From an uncultured Actinomycetes bacterium (GTDB taxonomy: Bacteria > Actinomycetota > Actinomycetes > Nanopelagicales > Nanopelagicaceae): 64,000 bases of DNA. Below the pieces are notes generated by a model. The model did not search any database, was not told the origin of the DNA, and saw nothing but the letters and a program-made list of their open reading frames with translations. Below, piece after piece: positions 35,180 through 53,136 of this stretch. The position numbers were made by a program, and so were the translations under genes. The stretch is taken from NCBI GenBank assembly GCA_937876245.1, contig CALEGP010000038.1, positions 1-64,000 on the forward strand, written 5' to 3'. Position 1 is the stretch's first letter. Each line of letters begins with the position of its first letter.

Positions 35180-35485
35180 ATGCAAGATTTAACAATTACA
35201 CAAGCACCACATAAGGCCAATTCTCATTCCTGTCGTTGCGGCGAGGATGCCTCAGATTCATATCCAGAGCTTGATGCTAGAAATATTCCGTCCGCAATTA
35301 GACATCCGGCAATTTTTGGCGTTCTAGATTCATTACTTTTGGGGTCTGGTTTCGTTTTGATAGCGCCACATAAACCGGTCCCTCTGTTATCTCAGGTGGA
35401 GAAGAAGTTTCCTGGATTATTTGAAGTTAGTTTCATTAACGAAACGCCAGAAAATTTCCGTGTTCAATTTATTCGTAAAATTTAG
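35180..35485 (+). CDS. DUF2249 domain protein
   Basis: The 101-residue protein has a short N-terminal HSCRCGED cluster and then the DUF2249 core: ELDARNIPSAIRHPAIFGVLDSL, an APHKPVPLLSQ segment, and EVSFINETPENFRVQF. The family recurs beside genes of anaerobic nitrogen-oxide respiration, but its biochemistry is unsettled. The Cys/His cluster could bind a metal. It is 9 nt upstream of the response regulator, so the two form an operon. Confidence 0.85.
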   Translation: MQDLTITQAPHKANSHSCRCGEDASDSYPELDARNIPSAIRHPAIFGVLDSLLLGSGFVLIAPHKPVPLLSQVEKKFPGLFEVSFINETPENFRVQFIRKI

Positions 35486-35494
35486 GGCGAGCTT

Positions 35495-36136: not shown

Positions 36137-36138
36137 AG

Positions 36139-37248: not shown

Positions 37249-37284
37249 AGCGCAATTCTCTCGAAAATTACCTCAAATGACGAG

Positions 37285-38625
37285 TTAGCTTTTCGCTTCT
37301 GCATTTACACGCGCATAAAACCACCAGGCTATTCCAGCGCCAACTATGGAAAAGGCGCTGATGGCAAGAAAGAAGTTCTCTGGCGCAAAAATGGATAGCA
37401 GCACTCCGAAAATAAACGGCCCAAATGCGGCAATTGCCGCAGTCCAGCCAAGTACGCCACCCGCCTGTCTAGGCGCAAAAATCATTGGCATCTGTTTAAA
37501 CGTGCTGGCATTCCCAACGCCCGTGAAGAAGAAGATCACCATCATTCCCCAGAAAAATGGGGCAAAGTCGGCAGAACTATCAGGGGATAGGTGGCCACTT
37601 GTAAAGAGTGCGGCGGCTGCAATTCCTACTCCAGAGAAACAAGTCAATATTCCGCCACCAATTCGATCGGCAAGTGGTCCACTTACTACACGAGCCACAG
37701 AACCAACCAATGGACCGAAGAAAGCGTATTTAACCGGGTCAGGAGCATTTGCAAATTCACCGAATAAGTTCTTTATAAGAAGTCCAAATTGTGCTGCAAA
37801 CCCGGAGAAAGTTCCGAAGGTCATGAAGTAAAGAAAGGTCATTAGCCAAGTGTGCCGGTTATTGAATATATCGAGCTGATCGCGAATTCCTCGAGACTTG
37901 ACTGGAACGCTTTTTAGCAGCAACCAGGAAAGTATCACTGACACTAGTACAAAGGGGATCCAAATTAGTCCAGCATTTTGGTACCACACATCTTTATCAA
38001 TATTCTTTGTGGCATCCACGAAACGTTGCGGAGCGCCAAATGTAGCGCCAAACATGGCCGAGCCAACGATAACGGGCGTCAAGAATTGAATGATGCTTAC
38101 GCCAAAGTTACCAACTCCTGCCTGAATTCCAAGAGCCAATCCCTGTTTTGATCGTGGGAAGAAGTAGGAAGTGCTTGGCATAAACCCCGAGAAAACACCA
38201 CCTCCAATTCCCGCCAGGAATGCAAGTGCTAGTAATGCAACATATGGAGTGGAAGGCGTACGAATTACAAGCGCCCAACCAATCAAAGGCAAGAGTAAGA
38301 GCGCTGTTGAGTAGGTAACCAATTTTCGTGTTCCAAGTATTGGTGGCAAAAACATCCAAATTAATCGTAAGCCACCGCCAGCTAGACCCGGCATCGCTGC
38401 CAACCAATACAGCTCCTTCTTTGATAAATCAAAACCTAAGTTATTCAATTTTGGGGCGAGTGCTGAAACAAGGAACCAACTCATAAAGCCGAGGGTTAGG
38501 GCATAAGTTGTCACCCACAAAGTTTTCCAAGCAATCTTGGAGTCCCACTCTCCCTCGATATTCGGGTCCCAAGAGGTAAGCCATTCGGAGGACTTGCCAG
38601 TGGGATTCGAGTTACTTGTTGACAT
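37285..38625 (-). CDS. narK2: Nitrate/nitrite transporter, NarK2 type
   Basis: This 446-residue major facilitator has 12 predicted helices and an extended N-terminus ending in WLTSWDPNIEGEWD. The nitrate signature GGGVFSGFMPSTSYFFPRSKQG and GIQAGVGNFGVS identify the NarK2 type, usually a nitrate/nitrite antiporter. It would bring nitrate to the cytoplasmic NarG site and remove nitrite. It starts 2 nt after narK1 stops. In mycobacteria narK2 belongs to the DosR regulon, which fits the neighbouring kinase. Confidence 0.92.
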   Translation of the reverse strand: MSTSNSNPTGKSSEWLTSWDPNIEGEWDSKIAWKTLWVTTYALTLGFMSWFLVSALAPKLNNLGFDLSKKELYWLAAMPGLAGGGLRLIWMFLPPILGTRKLVTYSTALLLLPLIGWALVIRTPSTPYVALLALAFLAGIGGGVFSGFMPSTSYFFPRSKQGLALGIQAGVGNFGVSIIQFLTPVIVGSAMFGATFGAPQRFVDATKNIDKDVWYQNAGLIWIPFVLVSVILSWLLLKSVPVKSRGIRDQLDIFNNRHTWLMTFLYFMTFGTFSGFAAQFGLLIKNLFGEFANAPDPVKYAFFGPLVGSVARVVSGPLADRIGGGILTCFSGVGIAAAALFTSGHLSPDSSADFAPFFWGMMVIFFFTGVGNASTFKQMPMIFAPRQAGGVLGWTAAIAAFGPFIFGVLLSIFAPENFFLAISAFSIVGAGIAWWFYARVNAEAKS

Positions 38626-38627
38626 TT

Positions 38628-39941
38628 TTATGCTCCATTTCGGTTAGAATCTTGAAAATCAATTTGGTGTTCGAGATTTGGGCTTGCTTCGTGGAGTAGC
38701 TTCATAATGACAAAATGCATCCAAATTAATGCGGTAAGGGTTAGCAGGAACAGCACTACAAATGTTGATTGGGGCAGTCCAGTCCAATGTCCAACAATGA
38801 CGAATAATGGTGGTAGAAAGAAGCCACCTAGCGCTCCTAATGTTCCTACCAGACCACCTACGGCTCCGATATCCTTAGGAAAATATTCTGGAATATGTTT
38901 ATAAACCGCAGCTTTCCCAATTCCCATTGAGCAACCAACGATAAAGAGCAACCCGGTAAATGGCACAACTCCTAAGTGGTACGGAAGTACCTCTTTTGGC
39001 CCACTCGGAGTATTCAATACGATATATCCAAATGGTGCAGCTAGAAGTAGCAATGCAAGGACCATGGTTATAAAGGTCGCGTACATCAATCTGCGCGCAC
39101 CAATACGATCCGATAATTGTCCACCTACGGGCCTAAGTAAAGAAGCCGGAAAGATGAAAAGTGCAGTAAGTAAGGCGGCATCTCTAAGTTCTAGGCCGTA
39201 TACGGACACGTAATATTTTGGCATCCATGATGCAAGAGCGACATATGCTCCAAAAACGATAAAATAATAGAAGCTAAAGCGCCACACTTGGACATACCTG
39301 AGCGGAATAAACATTTCCTTTAATGGTCGAGCCATTTGTACATTTGCTGAATCAGATGGAGTGAGCAACATCGTTGCAATAGCGGTGATCACCAGCAGAA
39401 TGGAATAGAGCGCAGGGACAAATCGCCACCCTCCTGGAATAATTCCACCTAAATAGGATCCGCCTACGGTGCCAGCAATAAGTGCGGGGCCAATGAACTT
39501 CGTTAAAGATGCACCAATATTGCCGGCACCAAACACGCCAAGAGCGAAACCCTGATGTTTTCTTTCGAACCAGTGCGAATTCCATGCAATTCCTACGCTA
39601 AATAAGTTTCCAGCGATACCAATTAGGAATGCGAGAATTAGCAACCAATTGTACGAAAGCTCCATGTGGGCCAAAAGGTAGGAAGGGATTGCTGTTATAA
39701 ACAGCATTGCGACTGTTACTCGTTTTCCACCAATTCGATCAGCAAGAATTCCAAGAAACAAGCGCCAAATTGATCCGTTAAGAATGGCAACGGCAGATAA
39801 CCAAGCCAGTTGTGAATCACTTAATCCAAATTCCTCTTGGATGGGAATTCCTAGAACTCCAAACATTAACCAAACAGCAAACATAAGGGTGAAGGCGAAT
39901 GTTGATAAAGTTAAAACTCTTCCTGAATCTTTCATTTTCAC
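38628..39941 (-). CDS. narK1: Nitrate transporter, NarK1 type
   Basis: The 437-residue, 12-helix major facilitator carries the NarK1-like signature GNLFSVGIAWNSHWFERKHQG and GVFGAGNIGASLTK. Characterised NarK1 proteins are proton-linked nitrate importers that start respiration. The GTG at 39941 has aaggag 8 nt upstream. It is the first gene of narK1-narK2-kinase and is divergent from narG, sharing a 116-bp control region. Confidence 0.92.
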   Translation of the reverse strand: MKMKDSGRVLTLSTFAFTLMFAVWLMFGVLGIPIQEEFGLSDSQLAWLSAVAILNGSIWRLFLGILADRIGGKRVTVAMLFITAIPSYLLAHMELSYNWLLILAFLIGIAGNLFSVGIAWNSHWFERKHQGFALGVFGAGNIGASLTKFIGPALIAGTVGGSYLGGIIPGGWRFVPALYSILLVITAIATMLLTPSDSANVQMARPLKEMFIPLRYVQVWRFSFYYFIVFGAYVALASWMPKYYVSVYGLELRDAALLTALFIFPASLLRPVGGQLSDRIGARRLMYATFITMVLALLLLAAPFGYIVLNTPSGPKEVLPYHLGVVPFTGLLFIVGCSMGIGKAAVYKHIPEYFPKDIGAVGGLVGTLGALGGFFLPPLFVIVGHWTGLPQSTFVVLFLLTLTALIWMHFVIMKLLHEASPNLEHQIDFQDSNRNGA

Positions 39942-40004
39942 AGTGCTAACTCCTTAAAACGAATTGCCTCTAGAGCAAAGCATCTCCTAAAGGATCTAGG
40001 GCAA

Positions 40005-40024
40005 ATAGGGTCTTTGTACCTATA
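40005..40024. promoter_or_regulatory. Candidate DosR-like operator between narK1 and narG
   Basis: The 20-mer reads AT-A-GGGTCTTTGTACC-TATA. It has inverted arms ATAGG/CCTAT and keeps GGG.CT and a following CC of the mycobacterial DosR consensus (TTSGGGACTWWAGTCCCSAA), about 12 of 20 positions. A second TAGGG lies 9 bp upstream. The regulator coded nearby has an almost unchanged recognition helix, so a related site is expected. The match is partial and the call tentative. Confidence 0.4.
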
Positions 40025-40057
40025 CATCTGAGAGCACTAGAGCGACAGAATGGGGGT

Positions 40058-43000
40058 ATGAAAAATGAGGAAGCTACATCTGCTGGTTTAGAGGAATCAC
40101 TTGTTAAACTTGGTCGGTTTTTTACCAGAGGCGAAGTCTCTCAAGATTTAAGGTCTATAACTAAAGATGGTGGCCGCGAGGGCGACGAGTTTTATCGTGA
40201 TCGCTGGAGTCATGACAAGGTAGTTCGATCAACACACGGGGTTAATTGCACTGGCTCTTGCTCTTGGAAAGTCTATGTGAAAGATGGAATCATCACTTGG
40301 GAAACCCAGCAAACTGATTATCCATCCGTCGGCCCAGATTCGCCCGAGTACGAGCCACGGGGGTGCCCTCGAGGTGCGGCCTTTTCTTGGTACACATATT
40401 CTCCAACTCGAATTCGTTACCCATATATTCGGGGGGTACTCCTGGAAATGTATAGGGAGGCGAAGTCTCGCCTTGGTGATCCCGTACTTGCTTGGGCAGA
40501 TGTTGTGGATAATCCTGAACATAGAACTAAGTACCAAAAAGCGCGCGGTAAGGGTGGTTTAGTCCGCGCCGAGTGGGGTGAAATATCCGAAGTAATTGCA
40601 GCCGCTCATGTTCACACGATCAAAAAATATGGACCTGATCGCGTCTTTGGATTTTCTCCTATCCCAGCTATGTCTATGGCTTCACACGCAGCCGGTTCAC
40701 GATTCATATCGCTCATGGGTGGATCGATGCTCTCTTTTTATGATTGGTATGCAGATTTACCAGTTGCCTCTCCACAAGTCTTTGGTGACCAGACCGATGT
40801 TCCTGAATCGGCCGATTGGTTTAACGCTTCATATTTAATTATGTGGGGATCAAATGTCCCAGTTACGAGAACTCCAGACGCCCACTTTATGACAGAGGCT
40901 CGGTATCGTGGTCAAAAAGTTATTGCTATAAGTCCAGATTATGCCGACAACACCAAGTTTGCAGATGAGTGGGTGGCCCCTCATCCGGGAACAGATGGCG
41001 CTCTTGGGATGGCTATGGGCCACGTGATTCTCAAAGAATTTTTCGTAGATAGACAAACGCCACGATTTACCGAATATGTTAAAAAATTCACTGACCTGCC
41101 TTACTTGGTTTCGCTCCGGGAAAAAGACGGGGCTTGGGTGCCAGATAAGTTTATTGTTGCCGCGGATCTCGGAGATACTTCAGAGGGCGCTAAATTTAAA
41201 ACTGTTGTTTTAGATTCGGTTAACGGAAAGACTTTTATCCCCAATGGCTCACTGGGGCATCGATTCAATGATGAATCAATGGGTAAATGGAATCTTGATT
41301 TAGAAGGAGTTGATCCACTCTTATCTGTCTATAAAACGCAGGGCGCTTCAGTAACTGCTATTTCTTTACCCCGCTTCGATGTGGGTCAAGGAGAGTCCGA
41401 AAGTGGAGGTGTTCTCTATCGAGGAGTTCCAACAATTGAAGTGGCCGGGAGAAAGGTGACAACAGTATTTGATCTTATGCTGGCTCAGTATGGCGTCGCC
41501 CGTGAAGGACTTGCAGGAGATTGGCCAAAAGATTACACAGATATCTCTCCATATACTCCAGCGTGGCAGGAAGAAATTACGAATGTTCCAGCTGCGCAAG
41601 CAATTCGGATCGCGCGCGAATTTGCACAGAATGCCGATGAGTCTGAAGGTCGCTCGATGATTCTTCTTGGCGCGGGCACCAATCATTGGTTTCATTCAGA
41701 CACTATGTACCGAACATTTTTGGCGCTCGTAACTCTGACTGGATGCCAGGGTGTAAACGGAGGCGGTTGGGCTCACTATGTAGGTCAAGAAAAATGTCGC
41801 CCGGTAACAGGTTGGGCACAGATTGCATCCGGCGCAGATTGGTCCCGCCCTGCTCGGCAAATGATCGGAACTGCATTTTGGTATGTCTCAACCGATCAGT
41901 GGAGATACGACGCTCTTAAATCTGAATTGCTTGCAACTCCGCTAGGAGAGCAGCGATTCAAGAACATGGCCGCAATTGATGTTCTAGCGAAATCAGCGCG
42001 CATGGGCTGGATGCCCTCTTATCCCTCACTAAATCGAAATTCCCTTGATTTAGCGGATGAAGCTCGCTCGCTTGGAGTAGAACCAGTGCAGCACGTTGTT
42101 GATGAGTTAAAGAATGGAGATCTAAAATTTGCTATTGAGGACCCCGATGCGCCAGAGAATTGGCCACGCGTCTTAACGGTTTGGCGGGCTAATATTCTTG
42201 GGTCCTCCAGTAAAGGAAATGAATATTTCTTAAAACATTTACTTGGTACAGATAACTCAGTGCGAGCCGAAGAGAATGGATTAGAAGACCGACCCCGGGA
42301 TGTTAAATGGCAGACAGAAGCACCGGAAGGAAAACTGGATTTACTTGTATCAATTGATTTCCGCATGACCAGCACTGGGCTATTCGGGGATATTCTGTTA
42401 CCAGCCGCAACGTGGTACGAAAAACATGATCTATCAAGCACTGACATGCATCCATTCATTCATGCTTTCACCCCGGCGATTAATCCGCCATGGGAGACAA
42501 AAACAGATTACGACATCTTCCAAATGTTAGGGCGGCAGGTCGCCGAACAGTCGAAGGGACATCTTGGCGAACGTGAAGATATTGTTGTTGTCCCTCTGCT
42601 CCATGACACCCCTGACGCGATGGCCAATCCAAGTGGCATAGTCGAGGATTGGCGTGATGGGAAAGTGGAGCCGATACCTGGAGTTACCATGCCAAAACTC
42701 ATGCTCGTAAAGCGGGACTACACGAAATTGGGCGAAAAGATGTCGGCGCTTGGTCCGCTGGTTGATCAATTGGGCACGAACACTAAGGGAGTTCCAGTAA
42801 GTCTGCTTCCGGAAGTCGAACTCTTGCGCCATGTGAACGGTGTAGTCGCGCGCGGTGTTGCCGAAGGACGGCCATCTCTTGCTACGGCGATTAATGCTTG
42901 CGAAACAATTCTCGCATTATCCGGAACAACAAATGGGCGGGTCGCTGTTGCAGGATTCAGGGCGCTTGAAAAGCGGACTGGTCAGAAGTTAACAGATTTG

Positions 43001-43741
43001 GCCCTTGATAATGAAGGAAAGCGAATAACTTTTGCTGACACGCAAGCTCGTCCAGTACCGGTGATTACCAGCCCAGAATGGTCTGGTTCCGAGCACGGAG
43101 GACGTCGATATACCGCCTTCGCAATAAATGTTGAACGTCTCAAGCCATGGCACACGCTGACTGGACGACAACACTTCTTCATAGATCACGACTGGATGAC
43201 AGAACTGGGTGAACAAATGCCAATCTTTAGGCCGCCACTTAATATGCATCGGATTTTTGGGAGCCAAGGAGATGGAATTGAAAAAGAAGTAACCGTTCGA
43301 TATTTGACACCTCACTCGAAGTGGTCAATTCATTCCGAATATCAAGATAATCTATTTATGCTCTCGTTATCGCGGGGAGGACAAGAGATTTGGATGAGCG
43401 TTGAAGATGCGCAAACAATCGGAGTCAAAGATAATGAGTGGATTGAGGCCTATAACCGTAATGGCGTCGTAGTAGCTCGGGCATGCATCTCTCACCGTAT
43501 GCCAACAGGAACTGTTTTCATGTATCACGCCAAGGACAGAGTCGTTGATGTACCTCTTGCAGAAACTTCCGGCAAACGCGGCGGAATTCATAATTCTCTT
43601 ACGAGATTGATGCTAAAGCCAACTCACTTAATCGGGGGTTATGCCCAACTTTCGTTTGCATTCAATTACCTTGGGCCGACAGGCAATCAAAGAGATGAAG
43701 TGACGGTTATTCGCCGTCGATCACAGGATGTGGAGTACTAA
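40058..43741 (+). CDS. narG: Respiratory nitrate reductase, catalytic alpha subunit
   Basis: NarG reduces nitrate to nitrite at a Mo-bisMGD site facing the cytoplasm. The 1227-residue protein has the FS0 [4Fe-4S] ligands His60, Cys64, Cys68 and Cys103, and the SFYDWYADLP segment with Asp229 in the place of the Mo-ligand Asp of E. coli NarG. PESADWFN, TRTPDAHF and the C-terminal molybdopterin-dinucleotide domain (from about 1075) follow. There is no Tat signal, only the remnant-like GRFFTRGE that marks inward-facing NarG. Its stop overlaps the narH start by one base. Confidence 0.97.
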   Translation: MKNEEATSAGLEESLVKLGRFFTRGEVSQDLRSITKDGGREGDEFYRDRWSHDKVVRSTHGVNCTGSCSWKVYVKDGIITWETQQTDYPSVGPDSPEYEPRGCPRGAAFSWYTYSPTRIRYPYIRGVLLEMYREAKSRLGDPVLAWADVVDNPEHRTKYQKARGKGGLVRAEWGEISEVIAAAHVHTIKKYGPDRVFGFSPIPAMSMASHAAGSRFISLMGGSMLSFYDWYADLPVASPQVFGDQTDVPESADWFNASYLIMWGSNVPVTRTPDAHFMTEARYRGQKVIAISPDYADNTKFADEWVAPHPGTDGALGMAMGHVILKEFFVDRQTPRFTEYVKKFTDLPYLVSLREKDGAWVPDKFIVAADLGDTSEGAKFKTVVLDSVNGKTFIPNGSLGHRFNDESMGKWNLDLEGVDPLLSVYKTQGASVTAISLPRFDVGQGESESGGVLYRGVPTIEVAGRKVTTVFDLMLAQYGVAREGLAGDWPKDYTDISPYTPAWQEEITNVPAAQAIRIAREFAQNADESEGRSMILLGAGTNHWFHSDTMYRTFLALVTLTGCQGVNGGGWAHYVGQEKCRPVTGWAQIASGADWSRPARQMIGTAFWYVSTDQWRYDALKSELLATPLGEQRFKNMAAIDVLAKSARMGWMPSYPSLNRNSLDLADEARSLGVEPVQHVVDELKNGDLKFAIEDPDAPENWPRVLTVWRANILGSSSKGNEYFLKHLLGTDNSVRAEENGLEDRPRDVKWQTEAPEGKLDLLVSIDFRMTSTGLFGDILLPAATWYEKHDLSSTDMHPFIHAFTPAINPPWETKTDYDIFQMLGRQVAEQSKGHLGEREDIVVVPLLHDTPDAMANPSGIVEDWRDGKVEPIPGVTMPKLMLVKRDYTKLGEKMSALGPLVDQLGTNTKGVPVSLLPEVELLRHVNGVVARGVAEGRPSLATAINACETILALSGTTNGRVAVAGFRALEKRTGQKLTDLALDNEGKRITFADTQARPVPVITSPEWSGSEHGGRRYTAFAINVERLKPWHTLTGRQHFFIDHDWMTELGEQMPIFRPPLNMHRIFGSQGDGIEKEVTVRYLTPHSKWSIHSEYQDNLFMLSLSRGGQEIWMSVEDAQTIGVKDNEWIEAYNRNGVVVARACISHRMPTGTVFMYHAKDRVVDVPLAETSGKRGGIHNSLTRLMLKPTHLIGGYAQLSFAFNYLGPTGNQRDEVTVIRRRSQDVEY

Positions 43742-45312
43742 TGAAAGTTATGGCGCAAATGGGAATGGTGATGAACCTCGATAAGTGCATTGGCTGTCAT
43801 ACATGTTCTGTTACATGCAAGCAGGCTTGGACAAATCGAACTGGGCTTGAATATGCCTGGTTCAATAATGTCGAAACTAGGCCAGGTCAGGGATATCCAC
43901 GCGGGTATGAAGATCAAGCAAAGGCCAAAGGGGGATGGGTGCGAACCTCGAAAGGACGCCTTCGACTCAAAGCTGGGAGTCGCATAAGTCGTCTAATTTC
44001 TATTTTCTCTAATCCAAAGATGTTAAATATTAAGGATTATTACGAACCGTGGACGTATGAGTATGACAATTTGATAACTGCTCCGCTTGGCCAGCAGACT
44101 CCAGTAGCACGGCCGAAATCTTTGCTCACTGGTAAACCAATGAAGATTGAGTGGTCTGCAAATTGGGATGATGACCTGGGCGGAGGTCCGGAAAATATCG
44201 AGAAAGACCCAATTCTAAAGAAATTGGCAGAGGATGTAACCACAAAAGTTAAATTAGCGTTCGAGGAAACTTTTATGTTCTACCTTCCTCGTATTTGCGA
44301 ACACTGCCTCAATCCAGCATGCGTTGCGGCATGCCCTTCAGGTGCTATGTACAAGCGCGCTGAAGATGGAATCGTCCTCGTAGATCAACAACAGTGCCGC
44401 GGGTGGCGAATGTGCGTTTCGGCATGCCCCTACAAAAAAGTTTATTTCAATCATAAGACAGGAAAAGCTGAAAAATGCACATTGTGTTATCCGCGTCTTG
44501 AAATAGGACTGCCGACAGTTTGTTCTGAAACTTGTGTCGGCCGCTTACGTTATCTGGGTCTATTCTTGTACGACGCAGACAGAGTTACTGAAGCAGCGTC
44601 AGTTGAAAACGAACAGGATTTATATCAGGCCCAGCTCGACCTACTTCTGGATCCAAATGATCCGGAAGTTTTGAAAGCGGCACGGGCCGAGGGAATTCCA
44701 GAAGACTGGTTGGTAGCGGCTCAAAATTCTCCCGTTTACAAACTTGCTAAAGTTTATAAAATTGCTCTTCCTTTGCACCCTGAATATCGAACGATGCCAA
44801 TGGTTTGGTACGTGCCGCCTCTTTCGCCAATTGTTGATGTTCTGACAGAGACTGGTCATGATGGTGAGGATGCAGGGAATCTCTTTGGCGCAATTGATGC
44901 TCTTAGAATTCCACTTGCATATCTAGCAGAACTTTTCTCGGCAGGAGACAAAGAAGTAGTTGAGGGAACGCTTCGAAAATTGTCGGCAATGCGTTCATAC
45001 ATGCGCGACATAAATTTAGGTCGTACCCCGCGACCCGAAATTCCTGCGGCAGTGGGCATGGATCAGGAATCTATTTATGAGATGTATCGTCTATTGGCAA
45101 TCGCTAAGCACGAGGACAGATATGTCGTTCCTGCGGCACATGCTGAGCAGGCTGAAGATCTGGAAAGAATGGGTCAGAACATGGGTTGTTCACTCGACGG
45201 CGTAAATCTTGGTGATGCAAATGCTGGACCATTTGGTCAATCGTCCGGAAATCCCGTTCCGGTAACAATCGAGAATTTCAATATTATGAAAGCGAGACAG
45301 TCTAATGAATAA
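43741..45312 (+). CDS. narH: Respiratory nitrate reductase, beta (iron-sulfur) subunit
   Basis: NarH wires electrons from NarI haems to NarG through four clusters. The first Cys group is Cys16/19/22/26. Further groups begin at Cys186/189/194/198 and Cys219/225/229, with Trp222 in place of a Cys, which marks the [3Fe-4S] cluster. The last is Cys246/249/261/265. The 523 residues match the family, and the ATG has ggag upstream. The 3' end overlaps narJ by 8 nt. Confidence 0.97.
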   Translation: MKVMAQMGMVMNLDKCIGCHTCSVTCKQAWTNRTGLEYAWFNNVETRPGQGYPRGYEDQAKAKGGWVRTSKGRLRLKAGSRISRLISIFSNPKMLNIKDYYEPWTYEYDNLITAPLGQQTPVARPKSLLTGKPMKIEWSANWDDDLGGGPENIEKDPILKKLAEDVTTKVKLAFEETFMFYLPRICEHCLNPACVAACPSGAMYKRAEDGIVLVDQQQCRGWRMCVSACPYKKVYFNHKTGKAEKCTLCYPRLEIGLPTVCSETCVGRLRYLGLFLYDADRVTEAASVENEQDLYQAQLDLLLDPNDPEVLKAARAEGIPEDWLVAAQNSPVYKLAKVYKIALPLHPEYRTMPMVWYVPPLSPIVDVLTETGHDGEDAGNLFGAIDALRIPLAYLAELFSAGDKEVVEGTLRKLSAMRSYMRDINLGRTPRPEIPAAVGMDQESIYEMYRLLAIAKHEDRYVVPAAHAEQAEDLERMGQNMGCSLDGVNLGDANAGPFGQSSGNPVPVTIENFNIMKARQSNE

Positions 45313-45952
45313 AGAGATCGCGAGAGTCATTTCATCTTTTGCACTTCTTTATCCTGGCGATGAATTTATCGCGAAGCGACCAGAACTTCTAGCCTTGGCG
45401 AGGAGTTTGCCTGCTAATTTGGGTGGGCCGCTAGTCCAATTCCTTGAAGCGAGTGAATCGCTACCACTTAATAGGCTGCAAGAGCACTACGTCGAGACCT
45501 TTGATATGAGACGAAAGTGCTCTCTTTTTCTGACTTCTTGGACGCATGGCGACACCCGAAACAGAGGAATGGCCCTCGTCTATTTCGCCGAGATATATAA
45601 ACGATTTGGAATCAAGTTGGAATCGACAGAACTTCCAGACCACCTATCGGTCGTTCTCGAATTTGCCGCGCTTCATAATCCGAAGGAGGGAGATTTGCTT
45701 TTAGGAGAGCATCAAGCTCCAATTCTTTTAATAAGGGATTCACTCGCTAAGGCCAGATCCATTTACGTGAACGTTCTTGATGCGGTAATTGCTTCACTTC
45801 CAGCAATGACCGATGAAATTCTTGCACGAGCAGAAGCACTAGCAATTACTGGACCGCCTAAGGAGTTTGTTGGATTAAGTGGCGCAGTATCCGTCGCACT
45901 CGAACCATTCTCGTCTAGGGGAAATTCTATTTTCGAAGGAGCAATTCAATGA
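45305..45952 (+). CDS. narJ: Nitrate reductase assembly chaperone
   Basis: NarJ is a cytoplasmic chaperone that holds NarGH during cofactor insertion and membrane docking. The 215-residue, mainly helical protein has the family features LLYPGDEF near the start, LQEHYVETFDMRRKCSLFLT and the DHLSVVLEFAAL segment. It sits in the conserved narGHJI order and overlaps both neighbours. Confidence 0.94.
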   Translation: MNKEIARVISSFALLYPGDEFIAKRPELLALARSLPANLGGPLVQFLEASESLPLNRLQEHYVETFDMRRKCSLFLTSWTHGDTRNRGMALVYFAEIYKRFGIKLESTELPDHLSVVLEFAALHNPKEGDLLLGEHQAPILLIRDSLAKARSIYVNVLDAVIASLPAMTDEILARAEALAITGPPKEFVGLSGAVSVALEPFSSRGNSIFEGAIQ

Positions 45953-46689
45953 GTTCGATTGATGTTCTGCTCTGGTCCGTACTTCCCTATTTTGCAATAT
46001 CCTCCTTCACTATAGGCCTAATGTGGCGTTTTAAATACGATAAATTCAATTGGACGACTAGATCATCACAGCTTTATGAAGGAAAATTGCTCAGAATTGC
46101 CGGCCCCCTATTTCATCTTGGACTTTTTGCCGTCATTGGTGGACATATCGTTGGTTTGCTTGTGCCTCAAAGCTTTACCGATTCGCTTGGCCTTAGCCAT
46201 GAGGCGTACCATCTTGGCGCAATTTCAATGGGCGGTGCGGCCGGAGTAGCGACACTACTTGGGATTGGATTGCTTATTTATCGCCGTCGAACCACAGCTA
46301 TGGTTTTTGTAGAGACGACGAAAAACGATAAGGGAATGTACATATTTTTAGTTGCCACTCTATTAGCTGGTTCGGCAGCGACGCTATCGAGCGCTGGAAT
46401 TATCGGCAAGGAACATAATTATCGCGAAACGGTTGCACCGTGGGTCAGGTCAATTCTTACTTTTCGTCCAGACGGTGAATTGATAATGGCCAGCCCCCTC
46501 GCTTTTAGAATTCACGCAATAACGGCCATGGTGCTATTCGTGGTTTGGCCATTCACTCGACTCGTTCATTCGCTAAGTGCGCCAATCGGATATCTATTTC
46601 GGCCTTCAATCGTCTATCGAACCCGTGACGTTCGATCCAGCGCAGGCAACCGTAGGTCTAGACAGGGTTGGGAACGAGTGAAGTATTAA
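45949..46689 (+). CDS. narI: Respiratory nitrate reductase, gamma (cytochrome b) subunit
   Basis: NarI anchors NarGH to the membrane and oxidises quinol at two b haems. The 246-residue protein has five hydrophobic helices. The four haem ligands are visible as His56, His66, His189 and His207, very close to the E. coli numbering (56, 66, 187, 205). The long C-terminal RDVRSSAGNRRSRQGWE tail is basic and cytoplasmic. The ATG overlaps the narJ stop (ATGA). Confidence 0.96.
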   Translation: MSSIDVLLWSVLPYFAISSFTIGLMWRFKYDKFNWTTRSSQLYEGKLLRIAGPLFHLGLFAVIGGHIVGLLVPQSFTDSLGLSHEAYHLGAISMGGAAGVATLLGIGLLIYRRRTTAMVFVETTKNDKGMYIFLVATLLAGSAATLSSAGIIGKEHNYRETVAPWVRSILTFRPDGELIMASPLAFRIHAITAMVLFVVWPFTRLVHSLSAPIGYLFRPSIVYRTRDVRSSAGNRRSRQGWERVKY

Positions 46690-46690
46690 C

Positions 46691-47299
46691 GTGTCATATA
46701 ACATCACATATTTGATTCTCACAGGAGGGGAGAGTAGGCGCTTTGGCTCGCCAAAAATGGAAGCAGTCCTAAATGGGAAAAGTCTCTTGGCGCATATTGT
46801 CGATGGGATACCGAACGAATCTGAAATTATTGTCGCCGGCCCAATTCCCAAGAATTTATCAAGAGGGGTGCACCAAGTGACAGAAAAAATTTCGTTTGGC
46901 GGACCGGTGTCCGGAATTTCTCATGGACTGACTCTGGTCACTACGGACTATGTGGCAGTAATTGCAACAGATGTGCCATTTGGGGGCGGAGCTATCGACG
47001 TGCTGAAGAAAGATTTGTCGACCAAATTTGATGCCTTCATTCCCATCGATCGCCAGGGATCGCTTCAGTATCTCTCGTCGATATTTAACGCCAATAAATT
47101 ACGAGAAGCCATCGCGAATTTGAATTCGCCCCTAAATGCTTCACTCAAAATATTGGTCAAAAGCCTGAGGGTAAAAGAGATTGCTTTCGCCGAATGGGAT
47201 TCCTATTTGTTAAAGGATATCGATACTCTGAAAGATCTCTCTGATGCTGAAAGTTGCTTAACGGATACGGTAAAACGCTTAGAGATAAGGGCGCTATGA
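46691..47299 (+). CDS. mobA: Molybdenum cofactor guanylyltransferase (MobA-like)
   Basis: MobA joins GMP to molybdopterin to make the dinucleotide cofactor that NarG needs. The 202-residue protein shows the nucleotidyltransferase opening LTGGESRRFGSPKMEA, then SFGGPVSGI and VIATDVPF (metal-binding Asp). The GTG start at 46691 is 1 nt after narI, so the gene is part of the nar transcript. Confidence 0.88.
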   Translation: MSYNITYLILTGGESRRFGSPKMEAVLNGKSLLAHIVDGIPNESEIIVAGPIPKNLSRGVHQVTEKISFGGPVSGISHGLTLVTTDYVAVIATDVPFGGGAIDVLKKDLSTKFDAFIPIDRQGSLQYLSSIFNANKLREAIANLNSPLNASLKILVKSLRVKEIAFAEWDSYLLKDIDTLKDLSDAESCLTDTVKRLEIRAL

Positions 47300-47523
47300 A
47301 CGAGTGGGTCATTGAAGTCAAGAAAAGTTTTGGACTAGAAATTGATTGTGATATTAAGGCAATTCTCGACGTCGCCCGAGTGGCGGCACATTCAGTCGAA
47401 AGACCGGCCGCCCCAGTAACTACATTTCTTATGGGGGTCGCATTCGCGAATGGCTGCAGAATAGATGAGCTGACAGAAAAAATTGATGCTCTGGCCAGGG
47501 ATTGGCCTGTAAAAGAGCGATGA
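47296..47523 (+). CDS. DUF6457 family small protein
   Basis: The 75-residue protein (MNEWVIEVKKSFGLE...) fits the small actinobacterial DUF6457 group found beside molybdenum cofactor genes. The core VARVAAHSVERPAAPVTTFLMGVA is a helix-turn-helix-like pair of amphipathic helices. The function is unknown; a role in MoCo synthesis or insertion is inferred from context. The ATG overlaps the mobA stop, and its own stop overlaps the moeA start (both ATGA), so it is tightly coupled on both sides. Confidence 0.85.
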   Translation: MNEWVIEVKKSFGLEIDCDIKAILDVARVAAHSVERPAAPVTTFLMGVAFANGCRIDELTEKIDALARDWPVKER

Positions 47524-48692
47524 AAACTAATGAACCATCTTGGCGAGAGGCAGGGAAGATTGCTTACCGATCATTCCCAGCCCTTGAAGTTGAGAGAGTT
47601 TCTATTTCCCAATGTGCAGAGCGGATCCTCGCACAAGACGTGAGAGCTCTCTGCGATCTTCCTACTTACACAACTTCAGCAATGGACGGGTATGTAGTCT
47701 GTGGCACAGGCCCATGGCATATTGAGGGAGACATTAAAGCTGGAAAGATATTCGAGCGAAAGCTAAATGATGGCCAAGCTGTTCGCATTGCAACTGGAGC
47801 GGTAATTCCTGAGGGGAGTTATGGTGTGTTGCGTTGGGAGGACGCCAGGATTGTGGGAAGTCTCTTATCAGGCGAGGTGGAACACAATCAGGATATCCGG
47901 CCAGCTGGTTATGAATGTAGAGAAGGAGATTTATTAGTTGCCAAAGGAACTCGATTGTCACCGAGTCAGATTGGTTTACTTGCAGCCGCAGGATTTGATG
48001 AAATTTCTATTTCTAAAAGACCGCGGATTTCCCTCATTACTTTTGGCGATGAACTGCAATTCTCTGGCGTTCCTAGCGAGGGCTTGGTGCGCGATTCCTT
48101 AGGCCCGCAAATTCCTGCCTGGCTACAACGCCTCTCAGCTGAAATTATCTCTTCTAGCCACGTCGATGATAATTTGGATTTGGTTGTGAATGCGATGAGC
48201 GAGGAAATCGAAAAATGTGATTTCTTAATCACGACTGGGGGAACTGCTGATGGACCAAGAGATCATATGCGAGCTGCGCTTGCAGCGATAGGCGCTGAAT
48301 TTTGTGTGGATCGAGTACGTGTTCGGCCTGGACATCCAATGATTCTGGCGTCGACGAGAAATAAGAAGAATCGGTTAATTCCAATTTTAGGATTGCCTGG
48401 AAATCCCCAGTCCGCAATCGTGGGATTAATGACCCTAGGAATTCCAGTTCTAAATGCGTTAACGGGCAGTGCTCCTGCGACAACCGAGAGAGCAGTATCG
48501 GCCACCGATCTTCAAGCTCCAGCGAATTTTACTCGTCTGGTTTTAGGCAATCTTGTCGAAGGCAAGTTTATAGAAGGAGACCACTTGGGTTCGGCAATGC
48601 TTCGCGGACTGGCAAATTCAGGGGGTTTCGCGGTCGTGCAAGATGGCCTGACCCCAGCTGGAAAGGGCATTGAATGGTTAGCCCTCCCATGA
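47520..48692 (+). CDS. moeA: Molybdopterin molybdenumtransferase
   Basis: MoeA inserts molybdate into adenylated molybdopterin. The 390-residue protein has the N-terminal TSAMDGYVV, the RIATGAVIPEGSYGVLRWE segment, the MoCF-binding TTGGTADGPRDH and the LPGNPQSAIVG loop, and a C-terminal beta-barrel domain. The ATG at 47520 overlaps the preceding stop. A frame reaching 47502 adds residues that read through that stop region and is less likely. Confidence 0.95.
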   Translation: MKTNEPSWREAGKIAYRSFPALEVERVSISQCAERILAQDVRALCDLPTYTTSAMDGYVVCGTGPWHIEGDIKAGKIFERKLNDGQAVRIATGAVIPEGSYGVLRWEDARIVGSLLSGEVEHNQDIRPAGYECREGDLLVAKGTRLSPSQIGLLAAAGFDEISISKRPRISLITFGDELQFSGVPSEGLVRDSLGPQIPAWLQRLSAEIISSSHVDDNLDLVVNAMSEEIEKCDFLITTGGTADGPRDHMRAALAAIGAEFCVDRVRVRPGHPMILASTRNKKNRLIPILGLPGNPQSAIVGLMTLGIPVLNALTGSAPATTERAVSATDLQAPANFTRLVLGNLVEGKFIEGDHLGSAMLRGLANSGGFAVVQDGLTPAGKGIEWLALP

Positions 48693-48717
48693 AATACAAA
48701 CGAACTGGAGTATAAAA

Positions 48718-49203
48718 ATGGCTAACGAAAATAATTTCTCCCATTTAAATAAGGATGGTCATGCCGCAATGGTGGATGTCACAAATCGTGAAGTTTCCAT
48801 AAGAATCGCGGCTGCTAGCGGAAAAGTTATTCTCGCTAAGGAAGTAATTTTGGCGCTCGAAAATAAGTCAGTTCCAAAGGGCGATGTGCTTGCGACTGCG
48901 CGCATTGCCGCAATTATGGGGGCAAAGCGAACTTCCGAACTTATTCCGCTCTGTCACCCAATTGGAATTCATGGAGTTAAGGTTGATCTCACGATTGTCG
49001 AGGACGGTGTCGAAATTGAAGTCGAGATTAAAACCGCCGATCGAACGGGTGTCGAGATGGAAGCGCTCACCGCGGCAGCCGTCGCCGCACTAACAATAAT
49101 TGACATGACTAAGTCCATGGACCCAACCTCAATAATTTCCGAAATTAAGATGAATTCGAAATCTGGTGGCCGCAACGGTATCTGGCATCGGGGGACCAAT
49201 TGA
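48718..49203 (+). CDS. moaC: Cyclic pyranopterin monophosphate synthase
   Basis: MoaC completes step 1 of molybdopterin synthesis, turning the MoaA product into cyclic pyranopterin monophosphate. The 161-residue protein has MVDVTNREVSIRIA, the KGDVLATARIAAIMGAKRTSELIPLCHP segment (Lys, His and Cys of the active site) and EMEALTAAAVAALTIIDM. It begins 25 nt after moeA with ggag before the ATG. Confidence 0.96.
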   Translation: MANENNFSHLNKDGHAAMVDVTNREVSIRIAAASGKVILAKEVILALENKSVPKGDVLATARIAAIMGAKRTSELIPLCHPIGIHGVKVDLTIVEDGVEIEVEIKTADRTGVEMEALTAAAVAALTIIDMTKSMDPTSIISEIKMNSKSGGRNGIWHRGTN

Positions 49204-49679
49204 TAACTGCAATGGTATTAACTATTAGCGACAGAGCTTCAGCAGGAATATACCAGGACGAAAGCGGACCCTTGCTTTCTGCCGGTCTGTCCGAACAGGG
49301 CTACAAAGTTATACAGTCAGTTCTTGTTCCAGATGACGTAGATAAAATTTCATCTGCGATTTCCAGTGCCTTGGCGCTTGAAGTTCGATTGATCGTTACA
49401 ACTGGGGGAACTGGAATATCGGAGCGCGATGTTACGCCGGAGGCGACAGTTCAATTTATAGAAAAAATGTTACCTGGATTCTCTGAAGCGTTGCGAGCCT
49501 TAGGGCGCAAGGTGAATGCGAAGTCTGACTTAACGAGAGGCCTGGCTGGGATTAATGGCAAATCTCTCATAATAAATCTTCCAGGTTCACTAGGTGGAGT
49601 ACGTGACGGCCTGGTGATTATCGGAGCATTGGCTGGCCACATTTTTGATCAATTGGATGGTGGCGAACATGTTAAATGA
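49200..49679 (+). CDS. mog: Molybdopterin adenylyltransferase (MoaB/Mog family)
   Basis: This protein activates molybdopterin by adenylation before MoeA acts. The 159-residue MoCF-fold protein has VLTISDRASAG, the binding loop TTGGTGISERDVTPEAT and the LPGSLGGVRD loop. The TTG start overlaps the moaC stop (TTGA). MoaB and MogA cannot be separated by eye, but one such enzyme is enough for the pathway. Confidence 0.92.
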   Translation: MITAMVLTISDRASAGIYQDESGPLLSAGLSEQGYKVIQSVLVPDDVDKISSAISSALALEVRLIVTTGGTGISERDVTPEATVQFIEKMLPGFSEALRALGRKVNAKSDLTRGLAGINGKSLIINLPGSLGGVRDGLVIIGALAGHIFDQLDGGEHVK

Positions 49680-50088
49680 ATGGTGTGAGATTACAAACTT
49701 GGAAATATCTGCCGCTAAACTTGGGGAGAAAGTTAAATCTGACAAATCTGGCGCAGTCGTGACTTTTTCGGGTGATGTTCGGGACATAGACAGCGGAAGA
49801 TTTGTTGTATCTCTCACATACGAAATTCATCCATCTGCAAAGAAAGTGCTAGACGAAATTGTTACTCGGGCGCTTGGATCACAAAAGGAAGTTAGCATCG
49901 CGGTCGCTCACAGATTTGGCCTCATTCCTATTGGCGAGACGGCATTTGCAGTTGCGGTTGCCTCCGAACACAGAAGAGAAGCCTTTGAGATGTGCAGCAA
50001 GATTGTAGATTCAGTCAAATCTGAGTTGCCGATATGGAAGCATCAAAAATTTTCAGATGGCACGAGTGAGTGGGTAAATTGCGCATGA
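49669..50088 (+). CDS. moaE: Molybdopterin synthase catalytic subunit
   Basis: MoaE, with MoaD, adds two sulfurs to cyclic pyranopterin monophosphate. The 139-residue protein has the TFSGDVRDIDSGR opening, LTYEIHPSAKK, VAHRFGLIPIGETAFAVAVAS and the WKHQKFSDG catalytic Lys segment. The ATG at 49669 overlaps the mog 3' end by 11 nt; an upstream in-frame ATG exists but is less likely. Confidence 0.94.
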   Translation: MLNEWCEITNLEISAAKLGEKVKSDKSGAVVTFSGDVRDIDSGRFVVSLTYEIHPSAKKVLDEIVTRALGSQKEVSIAVAHRFGLIPIGETAFAVAVASEHRREAFEMCSKIVDSVKSELPIWKHQKFSDGTSEWVNCA

Positions 50089-51086
50089 AGTCTCTGACTG
50101 ACAATTTTGGGCGTACCCACCGGGACCTGCGCGTTTCTCTTACGGATCGTTGTTCCCTGCGGTGTCAATATTGCATTCCTAGTGATTTTGCATCCTGGAT
50201 ACCCGCTAACGAGTTATTAACCACTAAGGAATTATTGCTGGTAATTTCTGAAGCAGTTAGAAATGGAATAACAGGAATTCGTTTAACTGGTGGCGAGCCC
50301 TTGTTACATCCGGATATCGTACAAATTGTTCGTGAGATCAGTGAACTTCCGAGCTCGCCAAGTATCTCTTTGACAACTAACGGAATTAAGTTGAATGAAT
50401 TGGCAGCGCCATTAGCGGATGCTGGACTAGTACGCGTCAATATCAGCCTAGATACTTTGAGTCGTGAGACGTTCAAAAGGTTGACCTTTCGAGATCGGAT
50501 TGATGATGTTTTCCGGGGAATACGGGCGGCAAAATTGGCGGGGCTGTCGCCAATTAAAATAAATACGGTGCTCATGCGCGGAGTCAATGATGGAGAGGCC
50601 ACGAGTCTCTTGGAGTGGGCACTTTCTGAAGGTCTGTCTTTGCGCTTTATCGAACAGATGCCCTTGGACGCCGCCGGCCTCTGGGATCGAAAAACTATGA
50701 TTTCTGCCGACGAAATAGTGGCCCTGCTTTCCGAGAAATTTGAACTCTCATCGGTTGAATTGCGCGGCTCCTCACCTGCTGAAGAATTTTATGTTGACCG
50801 AACGCGGGCTACGGTGGGGATTATTGGCAGTGTCACGCGGCCATTTTGTGGAGCTTGTGATCGGTTACGTTTAACTTCAGATGGACAATTGCGCTCTTGT
50901 CTATTTGCAATAGACGAGATCGATATTCGAAAAGTTCTGCGCAATAACCAACTGGATGAGAAATCGATCCGAGATCAAATTAGTTCTTGCTTCGAAAGAA
51001 CGGTGAAATCCAAGCTTGCAGGTCACGGAATTAACGAGCCACTTTTTATTTCGCCACCTAGACCGATGTCTGCTATCGGTGGGTAA
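50085..51086 (+). CDS. moaA: GTP 3',8-cyclase
   Basis: MoaA is the radical-SAM enzyme that opens molybdopterin synthesis from GTP. The 333-residue protein has the SAM cluster Cys23/27/30 and TGGEPLLHPD. A second C-terminal [4Fe-4S] cluster is marked by FCGACDRLRL...CLF. It ends in Gly-Gly, which is needed for activity in known MoaA. The ATG overlaps the moaE stop (ATGA). It is the last gene of the forward nar-moa operon. Confidence 0.96.
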   Translation: MKSLTDNFGRTHRDLRVSLTDRCSLRCQYCIPSDFASWIPANELLTTKELLLVISEAVRNGITGIRLTGGEPLLHPDIVQIVREISELPSSPSISLTTNGIKLNELAAPLADAGLVRVNISLDTLSRETFKRLTFRDRIDDVFRGIRAAKLAGLSPIKINTVLMRGVNDGEATSLLEWALSEGLSLRFIEQMPLDAAGLWDRKTMISADEIVALLSEKFELSSVELRGSSPAEEFYVDRTRATVGIIGSVTRPFCGACDRLRLTSDGQLRSCLFAIDEIDIRKVLRNNQLDEKSIRDQISSCFERTVKSKLAGHGINEPLFISPPRPMSAIGG

Positions 51087-51088
51087 AA

Positions 51089-51331
51089 TTATCCGCCCGC
51101 AAATTGTGGGAGAACGTCGATTCGTGAGCCACCTTTTACTTGTATTGAGCGATCTCGAACGGCTACTTCATCGATCAGGTATGAGCACTGTGGCAAGACC
51201 CTTGCCAACTCTCCTGAGGATTTTATTAGGCTGGCAATTATTTCCTCAATACTATCGGGCTGAACATGGACATGAGGCACCCCGGCTGCTTCTCTGGCAG
51301 CAGCATAGAATTTTATCTCCACCAAATCCAT
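51089..51331 (-). CDS. moaD: Molybdopterin synthase sulfur carrier subunit
   Basis: MoaD is the ubiquitin-like sulfur donor of molybdopterin synthase. The 80-residue protein opens with a beta strand (VEIKFYAAAREAAG) and ends with the required Gly-Gly (LPQFAGG). Unlike the other cofactor genes it is on the minus strand, with 2 nt between its stop and that of moaA. It needs its own promoter in the 62 bp before modB. A moeB-type activating enzyme is not in the window. Confidence 0.92.
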   Translation of the reverse strand: MDLVEIKFYAAAREAAGVPHVHVQPDSIEEIIASLIKSSGELARVLPQCSYLIDEVAVRDRSIQVKGGSRIDVLPQFAGG

Positions 51332-51393
51332 GCTTTGATTATCGACTACTCAGCAAATAATGACAACACCGAAAAAATAGGGATTCGAGAATT

Positions 51394-52215
51394 ATGAGAA
51401 ATTCAGCTTCCAGGAGTTCGATACCTAAGACTTTTTGGTTTCTTGGGGGAGTCGGTTTGGCATTTATTTTGTTGCCAATCCTTTCCCTGATCCTGAAGGT
51501 TAGCCCTTCGAGATTCTATGAGGATCTAAGGGCACCAGAAACGATTTCTGCTTTGCGTATTTCTTTAGAATCATCGATTGTAATCGCTCTTTTGGCATTT
51601 ATTTTCGGGGTACCTGTTGCATTTCTAATCTCGCGAGCACCTGTGATTTTTGGGAGAATCGTGCGCCCAATAATCGTATCTGCACTGGTATTCCCCCCTA
51701 CAGTGGCCGGTCTGGCACTCACGGCATTTATAGGCGATGAAGGAATTGTCGGAAAATACTTGGGATCAGTTTTCGGAGTTTATTTTTCAGGAAGCATGGC
51801 TGCGGTCATAATTGCGGGATTGTTCGTCGGCGCTCCCTTTCTTATCTTGATTGCTGAGGCAAGCTTCGATCAATTAGAGATCAGATTAGAAGAGTCGGCA
51901 ATTACGGAAGGCGCAACTAGATGGCAGGTATTCAGGTTCATCTCTATACCTCAAGTGCTTGGTGCCTTAATTGCTGGCACCACTCTTACTTGGGCACGGG
52001 CGCTAGGAGAGTTTGGTGCAACTATGACCTTTGCTGGTTCATTTCCTGGAAAAACATTCACTCCCTCGATGCAAATTTATGCAGATTTGAAGGTCAATCA
52101 GGGTGCCGCCTATTCACTTAGTATTTTCATGTTATTTATTTCTTTAGGAACACTTCTTTTACTCCAAGGTCGTTGGCTTCATATACTCTGGAAGAGAGGA
52201 AGCAGAATTGGCTGA
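51394..52215 (+). CDS. modB: Molybdate ABC transporter permease (ModB-like)
   Basis: The 273-residue membrane protein has about six helices and the permease EAA-type loop (EESAITEGATRWQVFRFISIP). It has the ModB-like GVPVAFLISRAP, PPTVAGLAL and RALGEFGATMTFAGSFPG segments. It would form the channel for molybdate uptake. Neither a ModA binding protein nor a ModC ATPase is next to it, so it must pair with subunits coded elsewhere, or the cluster has lost them. Its start is 62 bp from divergent moaD. Confidence 0.9.
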   Translation: MRNSASRSSIPKTFWFLGGVGLAFILLPILSLILKVSPSRFYEDLRAPETISALRISLESSIVIALLAFIFGVPVAFLISRAPVIFGRIVRPIIVSALVFPPTVAGLALTAFIGDEGIVGKYLGSVFGVYFSGSMAAVIIAGLFVGAPFLILIAEASFDQLEIRLEESAITEGATRWQVFRFISIPQVLGALIAGTTLTWARALGEFGATMTFAGSFPGKTFTPSMQIYADLKVNQGAAYSLSIFMLFISLGTLLLLQGRWLHILWKRGSRIG

Positions 52216-52321
52216 TTTTGCAGATTCAAATACCTGGAGAGCTCCTGGAATCTATACCGAGGGTGTTTTTCTATTAGGTAGGGAAGATGTCGAGCGAGGT
52301 TTGAGCAACCTATCTAATTGA
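52208..52321 (+). CDS. Possible 37-residue ORF after modB
   Basis: A TTG-started frame (MADFADSNTWRAPG..., ending SNLSN) overlaps the modB stop by 8 nt. It matches no family I know and lacks ATP-binding motifs, so it is not a ModC start. It may be a chance frame or the scar of a lost gene. Confidence 0.25.
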   Translation: MADFADSNTWRAPGIYTEGVFLLGREDVERGLSNLSN

Positions 52322-52363
52322 GTTTATGTTTATCTAATTTCTTACCAGCACTCGAAGGAGACT

Positions 52364-52456
52364 ATGTACGCAAAAATTTTAGATTTAACGCTTGTATTTG
52401 GTGGGGCGGGTCGGGCTCGAACCGACGACTACCGAATTATGAGTTCGGGGCTCTAA
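52364..52456 (+). pseudogene. Possible truncated gene start running into the tRNA
   Basis: An aaggag motif (52355-52360) precedes an ATG by 3 nt and opens MYAKILDLTLVFGG. The frame then continues antisense through the tRNA-Met gene and stops at 52454. The ribosome site without a gene body suggests a remnant cut off at the island boundary. It could also be chance. Confidence 0.25.
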
Positions 52457-52475
52457 CCAACTGAGCTACCGCCCC
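52399..52475 (-). tRNA. tRNA-Met (anticodon CAT, elongator type)
   Basis: The minus strand folds into a cloverleaf. Acceptor ggggcgg pairs with ccgcccc, and the D-arm is gctc-agttggtta-gagc. The anticodon stem ccgaa/ttcgg holds loop ctcataa. The T-arm follows, then discriminator A and an encoded CCA (77 nt in all). The anticodon stem lacks the three G:C pairs of initiator tRNA. tRNA-Ile2 with a modified CAT is a less likely alternative. Its 3' end faces the nitrate block. Confidence 0.93.
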
Positions 52476-52506
52476 GAGTATTTACTCTCAAGGATTGGGT
52501 AAGTCT

Positions 52507-53136
52507 ATGCTAACTCGCGTGAAGCACCGAATATTCCCCTGGATAAGCCTGACTTTCTTAGTGGCAATAATGGCCACTGTGTCAGTATCTAATTCTGCGG
52601 CTACAAGTACCGCCCCTGACTACACCTTCCCAATTGTCGGCTGTAAATATAATTATGCCCACTGGCACCACGATTATCCCGCAACGGATATTTTGACTAA
52701 AAAAGGATGCCATTTTGTAGCCCCTACTTCTGGAATCATCGATGAAGTTAATAGGGTCGATCGTTATTCATGGAAAAATAACGGTGGGGCGCTACGCGGC
52801 GGCCTTTCGATTTCTATGGTTGGTGATGACGGAATTCGTTATTACGGTTCTCACTTTAAAAAAATATACCGAAAGATTATCTCTGGATATCGAGTTGAAG
52901 TTGGTGAGCTTTTAGCCCAAGTGGGCACTTCGGGGGATGCTGCGGGGCTTGCGCCACATGTGCATTTTGGAATCTCTTGGCCAACCAAAGCAGGAATTTG
53001 GTGGGTGCGACGTGGTGAGATTTATCCCTGGAAATATTTAGATGCTTGGCAGGCTGGGGAAAATAAAAATCCTGCTAAAGAAGTCTTTGCTAAAGAGCGA
53101 AAAGTTGGAACCGTTCCAAAGCGTTTTGGTTATTAG
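52507..53136 (+). CDS. Secreted M23-family (LytM-like) peptidase
   Basis: The 209-residue protein has an N-terminal signal or anchor (about residues 8-32) and an M23 zinc peptidase fold. The metal ligands appear in HHDYPATDI (H-x6-D pattern) and HVHFG. Such enzymes cut peptide bridges of peptidoglycan. I use the ATG at 52507 with gggtaag upstream; a TTG at 52495 would add four residues. It starts just after the tRNA-Met gene and ends at a hairpin terminator shared with the cold-shock gene. Confidence 0.88.
   Translation: MLTRVKHRIFPWISLTFLVAIMATVSVSNSAATSTAPDYTFPIVGCKYNYAHWHHDYPATDILTKKGCHFVAPTSGIIDEVNRVDRYSWKNNGGALRGGLSISMVGDDGIRYYGSHFKKIYRKIISGYRVEVGELLAQVGTSGDAAGLAPHVHFGISWPTKAGIWWVRRGEIYPWKYLDAWQAGENKNPAKEVFAKERKVGTVPKRFGY

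Follow-up and report, generated by a model that had tools for sequence, protein, structure and literature searches.

A nitrate-respiration gene block beside tRNA-Met at a variable locus of the Nanopelagicaceae

Gene content and edges of the insertion

The DNA analysed here, hereafter the window, is a stretch of 64,000 nucleotides from an uncultured actinobacterium of the family Nanopelagicaceae. It carries the nitrate reductase operon narGHJI together with regulators, transporters and molybdenum-cofactor genes, all between nnrD and a tRNA-Met gene. The features are as follows.

33048..33887, minus strand: nnrD (NAD(P)H-hydrate dehydratase; PF01256 and synteny), the left flank, which adjoins tRNA-Met in four relatives
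33888..52398: insertion between nnrD and tRNA-Met, in place of a 29-44-bp spacer in four relatives (G010, G007, G019, G011)
34051..34938, plus strand: fda (fructose-bisphosphate aldolase; NF003784 above cut-off), inside the insertion
35180..36136, plus strand: DUF2249 protein (PF10006) and LuxR/NarL-type response regulator (named from sequence), the start of the nar module
36139..39941, minus strand: NarX-like sensor kinase with two MFS transporters; NCBIfam scores fall below cut-off for the kinase and for the transporter closest to NarK
40058..46689, plus strand: narGHJI, respiratory nitrate reductase (TIGR01580, TIGR01660 and TIGR00351 above cut-off)
45305-45952, plus strand: narJ, named by its position in the gene order only
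46691..51086, plus strand: molybdenum-cofactor genes mobA-like, moeA-like, moaC, mog, moaE and moaA (family searches and names from sequence)
51086..51340 (approximate), minus strand: probable moaD, recognised by eye, C-terminus ...FAGG
51394..52215, plus strand: modB-like molybdate permease (PF00528; TIGR01581 and TIGR02141 below cut-offs), the last gene before the tRNA
52216..52398: spacer without an intact gene (reading by eye and blastn)
52399..52475, minus strand: tRNA-Met (CAT) with encoded CCA, the right edge of the insertion and the hotspot target (ARAGORN)
52495..53136, plus strand: M23-peptidase-like protein (PF01551 just under cut-off), the right flank, which in relatives lies 5' of the tRNA

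Among the cofactor genes, the mobA-like gene was assigned by PF12804, moaA scored above and moeA below its cut-off, and three further genes are presumably moaC, mog and moaE, named from their sequence. The order of the cofactor genes beside nar matches that in G286, a genome of another genus (g14), and the DUF2249 protein and response regulator keep their order beside nar in most stretches from genus g11. No modA or modC was recognised beside the modB-like gene within the island.

The right edge is formed by the tRNA. Its 3' end reads ...CCGCCCCACCA, with the CCA encoded and at the low-coordinate end, towards modB. A preliminary description had placed a minus-strand tRNA here with its encoded CCA facing the island, and both ARAGORN and the sequence agree. 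The 183 bp that separate the tRNA from the end of modB (at 52215) hold, as that description also had it, no intact gene: the longest frame, read by eye, has about 37 codons and a TTG start across the modB stop, and we judged it not to be a gene. The spacer had no blastn relative at E<=0.01 among the loci compared with it, self-matches excluded. In the 44 stretches scanned we found 32 full copies of tRNA-Met, counting that of the window; five copies from the genus lack an encoded CCA (in L027, L028, L037, L042 and L257). Of the 27 genomes of the genus, 20 have the M23 gene that lies 5' of the tRNA.

Both edges are defined by relatives that lack nar. In four of them the tRNA lies directly beside nnrD, without fda, and the distance from the tRNA 3' end to nnrD is 44, 44, 29 and 30 bp in G010, G007, G019 and G011, respectively (L026, L031, L033 and L034), compared with 18,511 bp in the window (33888-52398). 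The insertion therefore spans about 33888-52398: on the right it ends at the tRNA terminus or close to it, and on the left it begins immediately upstream of the start of nnrD. The arrangement of tRNA and block is more than chance, because the four relatives have the same tRNA beside nnrD, the other flank of the block. These empty sites bear out the earlier proposal that the tRNA 3' end forms the right edge, whereas the left edge proposed with it (34939-35180, after fda) has to be moved: it falls inside the insert, which includes fda and abuts nnrD. In the stretches read, tRNA-Met and nnrD share a contig in seven genomes of the genus, four with an empty site and three with a filled one (18.5 kb in the window's own genome, 14.8 kb in G006 and 0.6 kb in G009).

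NarG was found in one of the 27 genus genomes, the window's own, and likewise in one of the nine with completeness of at least 90% and contamination of at most 5%. The aldolase gene fda was also found in one of 27. Since the other genus genomes are 58-99% complete, any single absence of NarG or fda is weak. In G201 (g11) a relative (70.6%) of the window's fda lies 3' of tRNA-Met, and for this reason fda looks like hotspot cargo too. We looked for a compositional mark of foreign DNA in the insert and rejected it: GC content is 46.0% in the insert, close to the 46.9-47.2% of the flanks (43.3% in a 252-kb sample of the same genome).

Variable cargo and tRNA fragments in relatives

The genes beside tRNA-Met vary in all five genera for which the context was read. 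In g11, g12, g14 and g7 (eight, one, one and one genomes) tRNA-Met is near a relative of the M23 gene, with variable genes around. No M23 gene was seen in the g4 stretch (L317). Peroxidase, sulfur-metabolism-like and sugar-transport genes were recognised by eye among the cargo, of which a few genes were also run through family searches (a peroxidase in L035 and a carbonic anhydrase in L309). Similar-looking proteins (...ANI-INSGPVEFGQG..., by eye) stand beside tRNA-Met in different genomes (L027 15721-16776, L041 7639-8817, L253 4333-5517).

Variation is also seen outside the interval between the tRNA and nnrD. Five genomes have inserts between M23 and the tRNA (G009, G003, G012, G021 and G017) and two between nnrD and glcD (G007 and G008), the stretch read ending before glcD in G010, G011 and G019. 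In G020, a genome that is 83% complete, no nnrD was found, and by eye a C-terminal tail of nnrD lies near the tRNA. Inserts in these two adjoining slots reveal a neighbourhood that is plastic throughout, and an att site at the tRNA 3' end does not explain them.

In relatives, tRNA-Met fragments bound other pieces of cargo. Searched with up to three mismatches, a 20-base stretch from the tRNA 3' end matched at 30 places in 19 of the 27 genus genomes; the reversed pattern matched at one. Partial 3'-end copies number 11, in seven of the 27 (one each in G002, G004, G009 and G011, two each in G003 and G021, and three in G023). With length measured to the base before CCA, and allowing mismatches up to the larger of two or 10%, five of them are 47-54 nt long, starting at about the anticodon stem, and six are 16-24 nt long, starting in the T loop. 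Islander (PMC4383910) counts crossovers centred on the anticodon and those in the T-stem region as two classes of tRNA island sites; the two lengths fit these classes and are those that tyrosine integrases would be expected to leave. The fragments share a contig with tRNA-Met in G004, G009 and G021; the one in G002 and both in G003 lie near nnrD, in G003 on a contig other than that of tRNA-Met. In G011 the fragment adjoins tRNA-Val on a separate contig, and in G023 the contigs concerned show no tRNA-Met in the stretch read, so location at the hotspot is not shown for every fragment. A second full copy of tRNA-Met, without CCA, occurs in G013.

The insert of G009 consists of a fucU/rbsD gene (PF05025) between tRNA-Met and a second tRNA 3' end, and a matching 141-aa gene (by eye) is found in G003 in an equal unit of 584 bp between two 3'-end copies. 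This unit (L252, L030) is next to the tRNA in one genome and to a partial copy in the other. In G021 and G023 (L041, L254) two tRNA-Met 3' fragments lie 182 bp apart with the same flanks, beside a peroxidase-like gene. In G225, an apparent shared element-side flank was discounted as probably due to chance, since by eye the sequence there looks like the terminal part of a peroxidase gene.

Fragments were found in other genera as well: 3' copies on the same contig as tRNA-Met, and near it, in G183 (two) and G271 (one), and two 5' fragments in G049 with one more in G286. G049 has a split tRNA-Met: one of its fragments lies between M23 and a 116-aa frame of a tyrosine integrase, with the intact tRNA-Met about 11 kb away. 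That frame matches PF00589 below cut-off (E 6e-4) and phrog_1 integrase at 3.6e-7. It is absent from the results of the PF00589 search of the G049 genome, which is in keeping with a decayed gene but is also a caution. Matches to it at E<=1e-8 occur in three of 296 family genomes, its own (G049) and G260 and G091, and the three stretches around the matches in the latter two hold neither tRNA-Met nor a fragment of it. Between the intact tRNA-Met and the 5' fragment with the decayed frame, G049 carries what appears by eye to be sugar-utilisation cargo (L318 8351-19901).

As a check of the search logic, we looked at eight stretches with integrase-type genes elsewhere. A duplicated tRNA 3' end was found in two and in none of the other six, two of which hold no tRNA. 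The two cases, in L095 and L097, are tRNA-Arg in G013 (20/22) and tRNA-Leu in G006 (exact). None of the eight stretches contains tRNA-Met.

The window differs from these relatives. A copy of the tRNA 3' end had been proposed near 34939-35180 or farther left, and the search for it was negative: the sole match in the window is the tRNA itself, as it is in the whole genome. No degenerate copy above chance was found in 33861-52398; the best alignment score between the left edge of the island and the tRNA 3' end was reached by 46 of 500 shuffles, and the score of 10 for the whole island by 200 of 200. Among the 20 largest of at least 60 families of direct repeats across 33000-53200, the edges are joined by weak identity at most. 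A search with PF00589, which covers tyrosine integrases, found none in the island, in agreement with the preliminary description. The genome's two matches are on contigs C9 and C10, the window being on C38, and we infer that both are Xer-type proteins because 19 of the 27 genus genomes, this one among them, match at least twice at E<1e-39. Thus, the idea of a tRNA-targeting integrase holds in part. Repeated integration at tRNA-Met is seen in relatives, but the nar block keeps neither a distal att site nor a tyrosine integrase, and an integrase is only a candidate for the agent that placed this block.

Source and route of the nar block

We consider it likely that the nar block is a resident metabolic island, derived from another member of the family, at a tRNA-Met hotspot founded by integrases, and that its integrase and att site were lost or never present. 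The hotspot would go back to elements whose tyrosine integrases used the anticodon loop or the T loop of tRNA-Met as attB. Either with fda or after it, the nar block would then have come in from another family member; the integrase and distal att fragment would have been lost, or would never have been there if entry was by recombination in the flanks. The tRNA would stay intact while adjoining genes turn over, nitrate respiration and its own cofactor supply being added here.

The source of the block was addressed with two trees. In the NarG tree (24 rows, midpoint-rooted, covering those 19 of the 28 other family genomes with NarG for which loci were available), the window's NarG is sister to g11 (100/95). 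In the FabF tree (18 rows, midpoint-rooted), g11 joins the single g12 row and the window's genus is outside (99/98). The disagreement supports transfer of nar within the family and does not prove it, because one core gene makes a thin species tree. The FabF comparison and the trees took the place of core-protein identities from sampled contigs, in which the window's genome and g11 had no clear shared core genes.

The preliminary description would have been contradicted by vertical inheritance of nar, and within the genus nar is not simply vertical, given its presence in one of 27 genomes and the disagreement of the two trees. An ancestral presence of nar at this site, followed by loss in the 26 other genomes of the genus, is very improbable. 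On the one hand, NarG (E<=1e-100) is found in 29 of 296 family genomes and seven of 17 genera, and the order of the module is conserved in the stretches read: all nine g11 genomes read have narGHJI with the same regulators and transporters. On the other hand, the tRNA-nnrD junction is clean in four relatives, eight of the 26 genomes without NarG reach at least 90% completeness with at most 5% contamination, and none of the 12 nar stretches examined from other genera, g11 among them, contains tRNA-Met, to which the conflict between NarG and FabF topologies adds. In g12, nar loci in G271 and G264 (L118-L119, L121) lie about 1.4 and 7 kb from tRNA-Glu/tRNA-Gln, whose 3' ends face nar; this is possibly a second tRNA-linked nar site.

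As for the route, it is quite possible, if short of probable, that nar arrived at the tRNA 3' end on an element carrying an integrase and that the integrase and distal att later eroded. The geometry, the empty sites and the relatives' att fragments of the two right types all argue for it, although the window retains no remnant and three neighbouring slots vary rather than one. A weak hint comes from the motif AATACA, which follows the encoded CCA at five of 30 junctions (the window, G003 twice, G002 and G015), with AATATA at G009; neither motif occurs at any of six nnrD-side junctions. However, both are missing at the other 18 junctions, many of them occupied, and the counts, which ignore kinship, may reflect relatedness.

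Entry by homologous recombination in the flanks (M23/csp and nnrD/glcD) is almost as likely; the hotspot allele would have been swapped, with no integrase and with the tRNA as a mere landmark. An island without an att fragment or tyrosine integrase is consistent with this, as are inserts in three adjoining slots (M23 to tRNA, tRNA to nnrD, and nnrD to glcD) and the nnrD tail seen by eye in G020. The presence of fda beside tRNA-Met in G201, in another genus, is what allele exchange would lead one to expect. However, identity of the flanks to other genera is low for direct exchange between genera (46-58% for M23 and 73-82% for FabF), and the tRNA fragments in seven of 27 genomes show site-specific insertion at tRNA-Met.

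It is unlikely, though worth stating, that the family's tRNA-Met locus is a cassette array without an integrase of its own, in which single genes bounded by fragments (the 584-bp fucU unit of G009 and G003) and 182-bp pieces (G021 and G023) would be shuffled by a recombinase acting in trans, blocks such as nar would accumulate beside them, and the tRNA would play the part that attI has in an integron. An artefact of assembly or binning is hardly credible: assemblies of the relatives are fragmented and many are incomplete, but in the window both flanks share a contig with the island, and the genome is 99.99% complete with 0.78% contamination.

Relation to known tRNA-associated islands

The preferred reading, a resident metabolic island at an integrase-founded tRNA-Met hotspot, can be set against known systems. 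By the terms of Islander, the nar island has an intact tDNA at one end, with the 3' end facing the island, and its 18,511 bp fall within the range of 2-200 kb. It is nevertheless outside the definition, because its far end carries no cognate tDNA fragment and its interior no tyrosine integrase. Islander-type islands (PMC4383910) are like it in the intact tRNA, and like its relatives in the anticodon-type and T-region-type fragments. Nor is it a tycheposon: the tRNA border is present, but the tyrosine recombinase is absent. As in an additive flexible island at a tRNA hotspot, cargo varies at one place that is empty in some genomes, and repeats of tRNA fragments occur in seven of 27 genus genomes, none of them the window's own, the hotspot location of some fragments being unproven. 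The nar island is thus an insertion at a site that other inserts, with tRNA fragments, have entered.

The closest likenesses are in 'Ca. Actinomarinales' and the Methylophilaceae. Additive islands of 'Ca. Actinomarinales', also streamlined aquatic actinobacteria, are described as fed by small cassettes inserted at tRNAs, with tRNA-Ile and tRNA-Glu loci also in use (PMC7771536). Their main island determines the glycotype, whereas here the site is tRNA-Met with metabolic genes as cargo (nar, a peroxidase gene, fda and transporters), and unlike those cassettes the nar island itself has no tRNA repeat. Among the flexible islands fGI-2 and fGI-3 of the Methylophilaceae (PMC10872708), repeats of the last 20 nt of tRNA-Lys similarly mark an additive island, and a tycheposon resembles the present island in its tRNA-Met border and nitrogen-related genes; the fGI-3 tycheposon carries xerD, unlike the window's island, which has no tyrosine recombinase. 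We found no description of a nar island at tRNA-Met in literature on Nanopelagicales or nar islands, as represented by titles and the openings of abstracts with few subscription journals covered, and the consulted portions of PMC4741004 and PMC12361377, on nar islands or nar in this group, place nothing at tRNA-Met.

The flexible island anchored at a tRNA is a known kind, to which nitrate-respiration cargo at tRNA-Met adds a case. The finding maps a site where a streamlined actinobacterium carries a full nitrate-respiration pathway as one block. Across the 27 genomes of the genus and their relatives, the locus occurs in empty, single-fragment and multiple-fragment states, which makes the turnover of metabolic cargo at a tRNA measurable.
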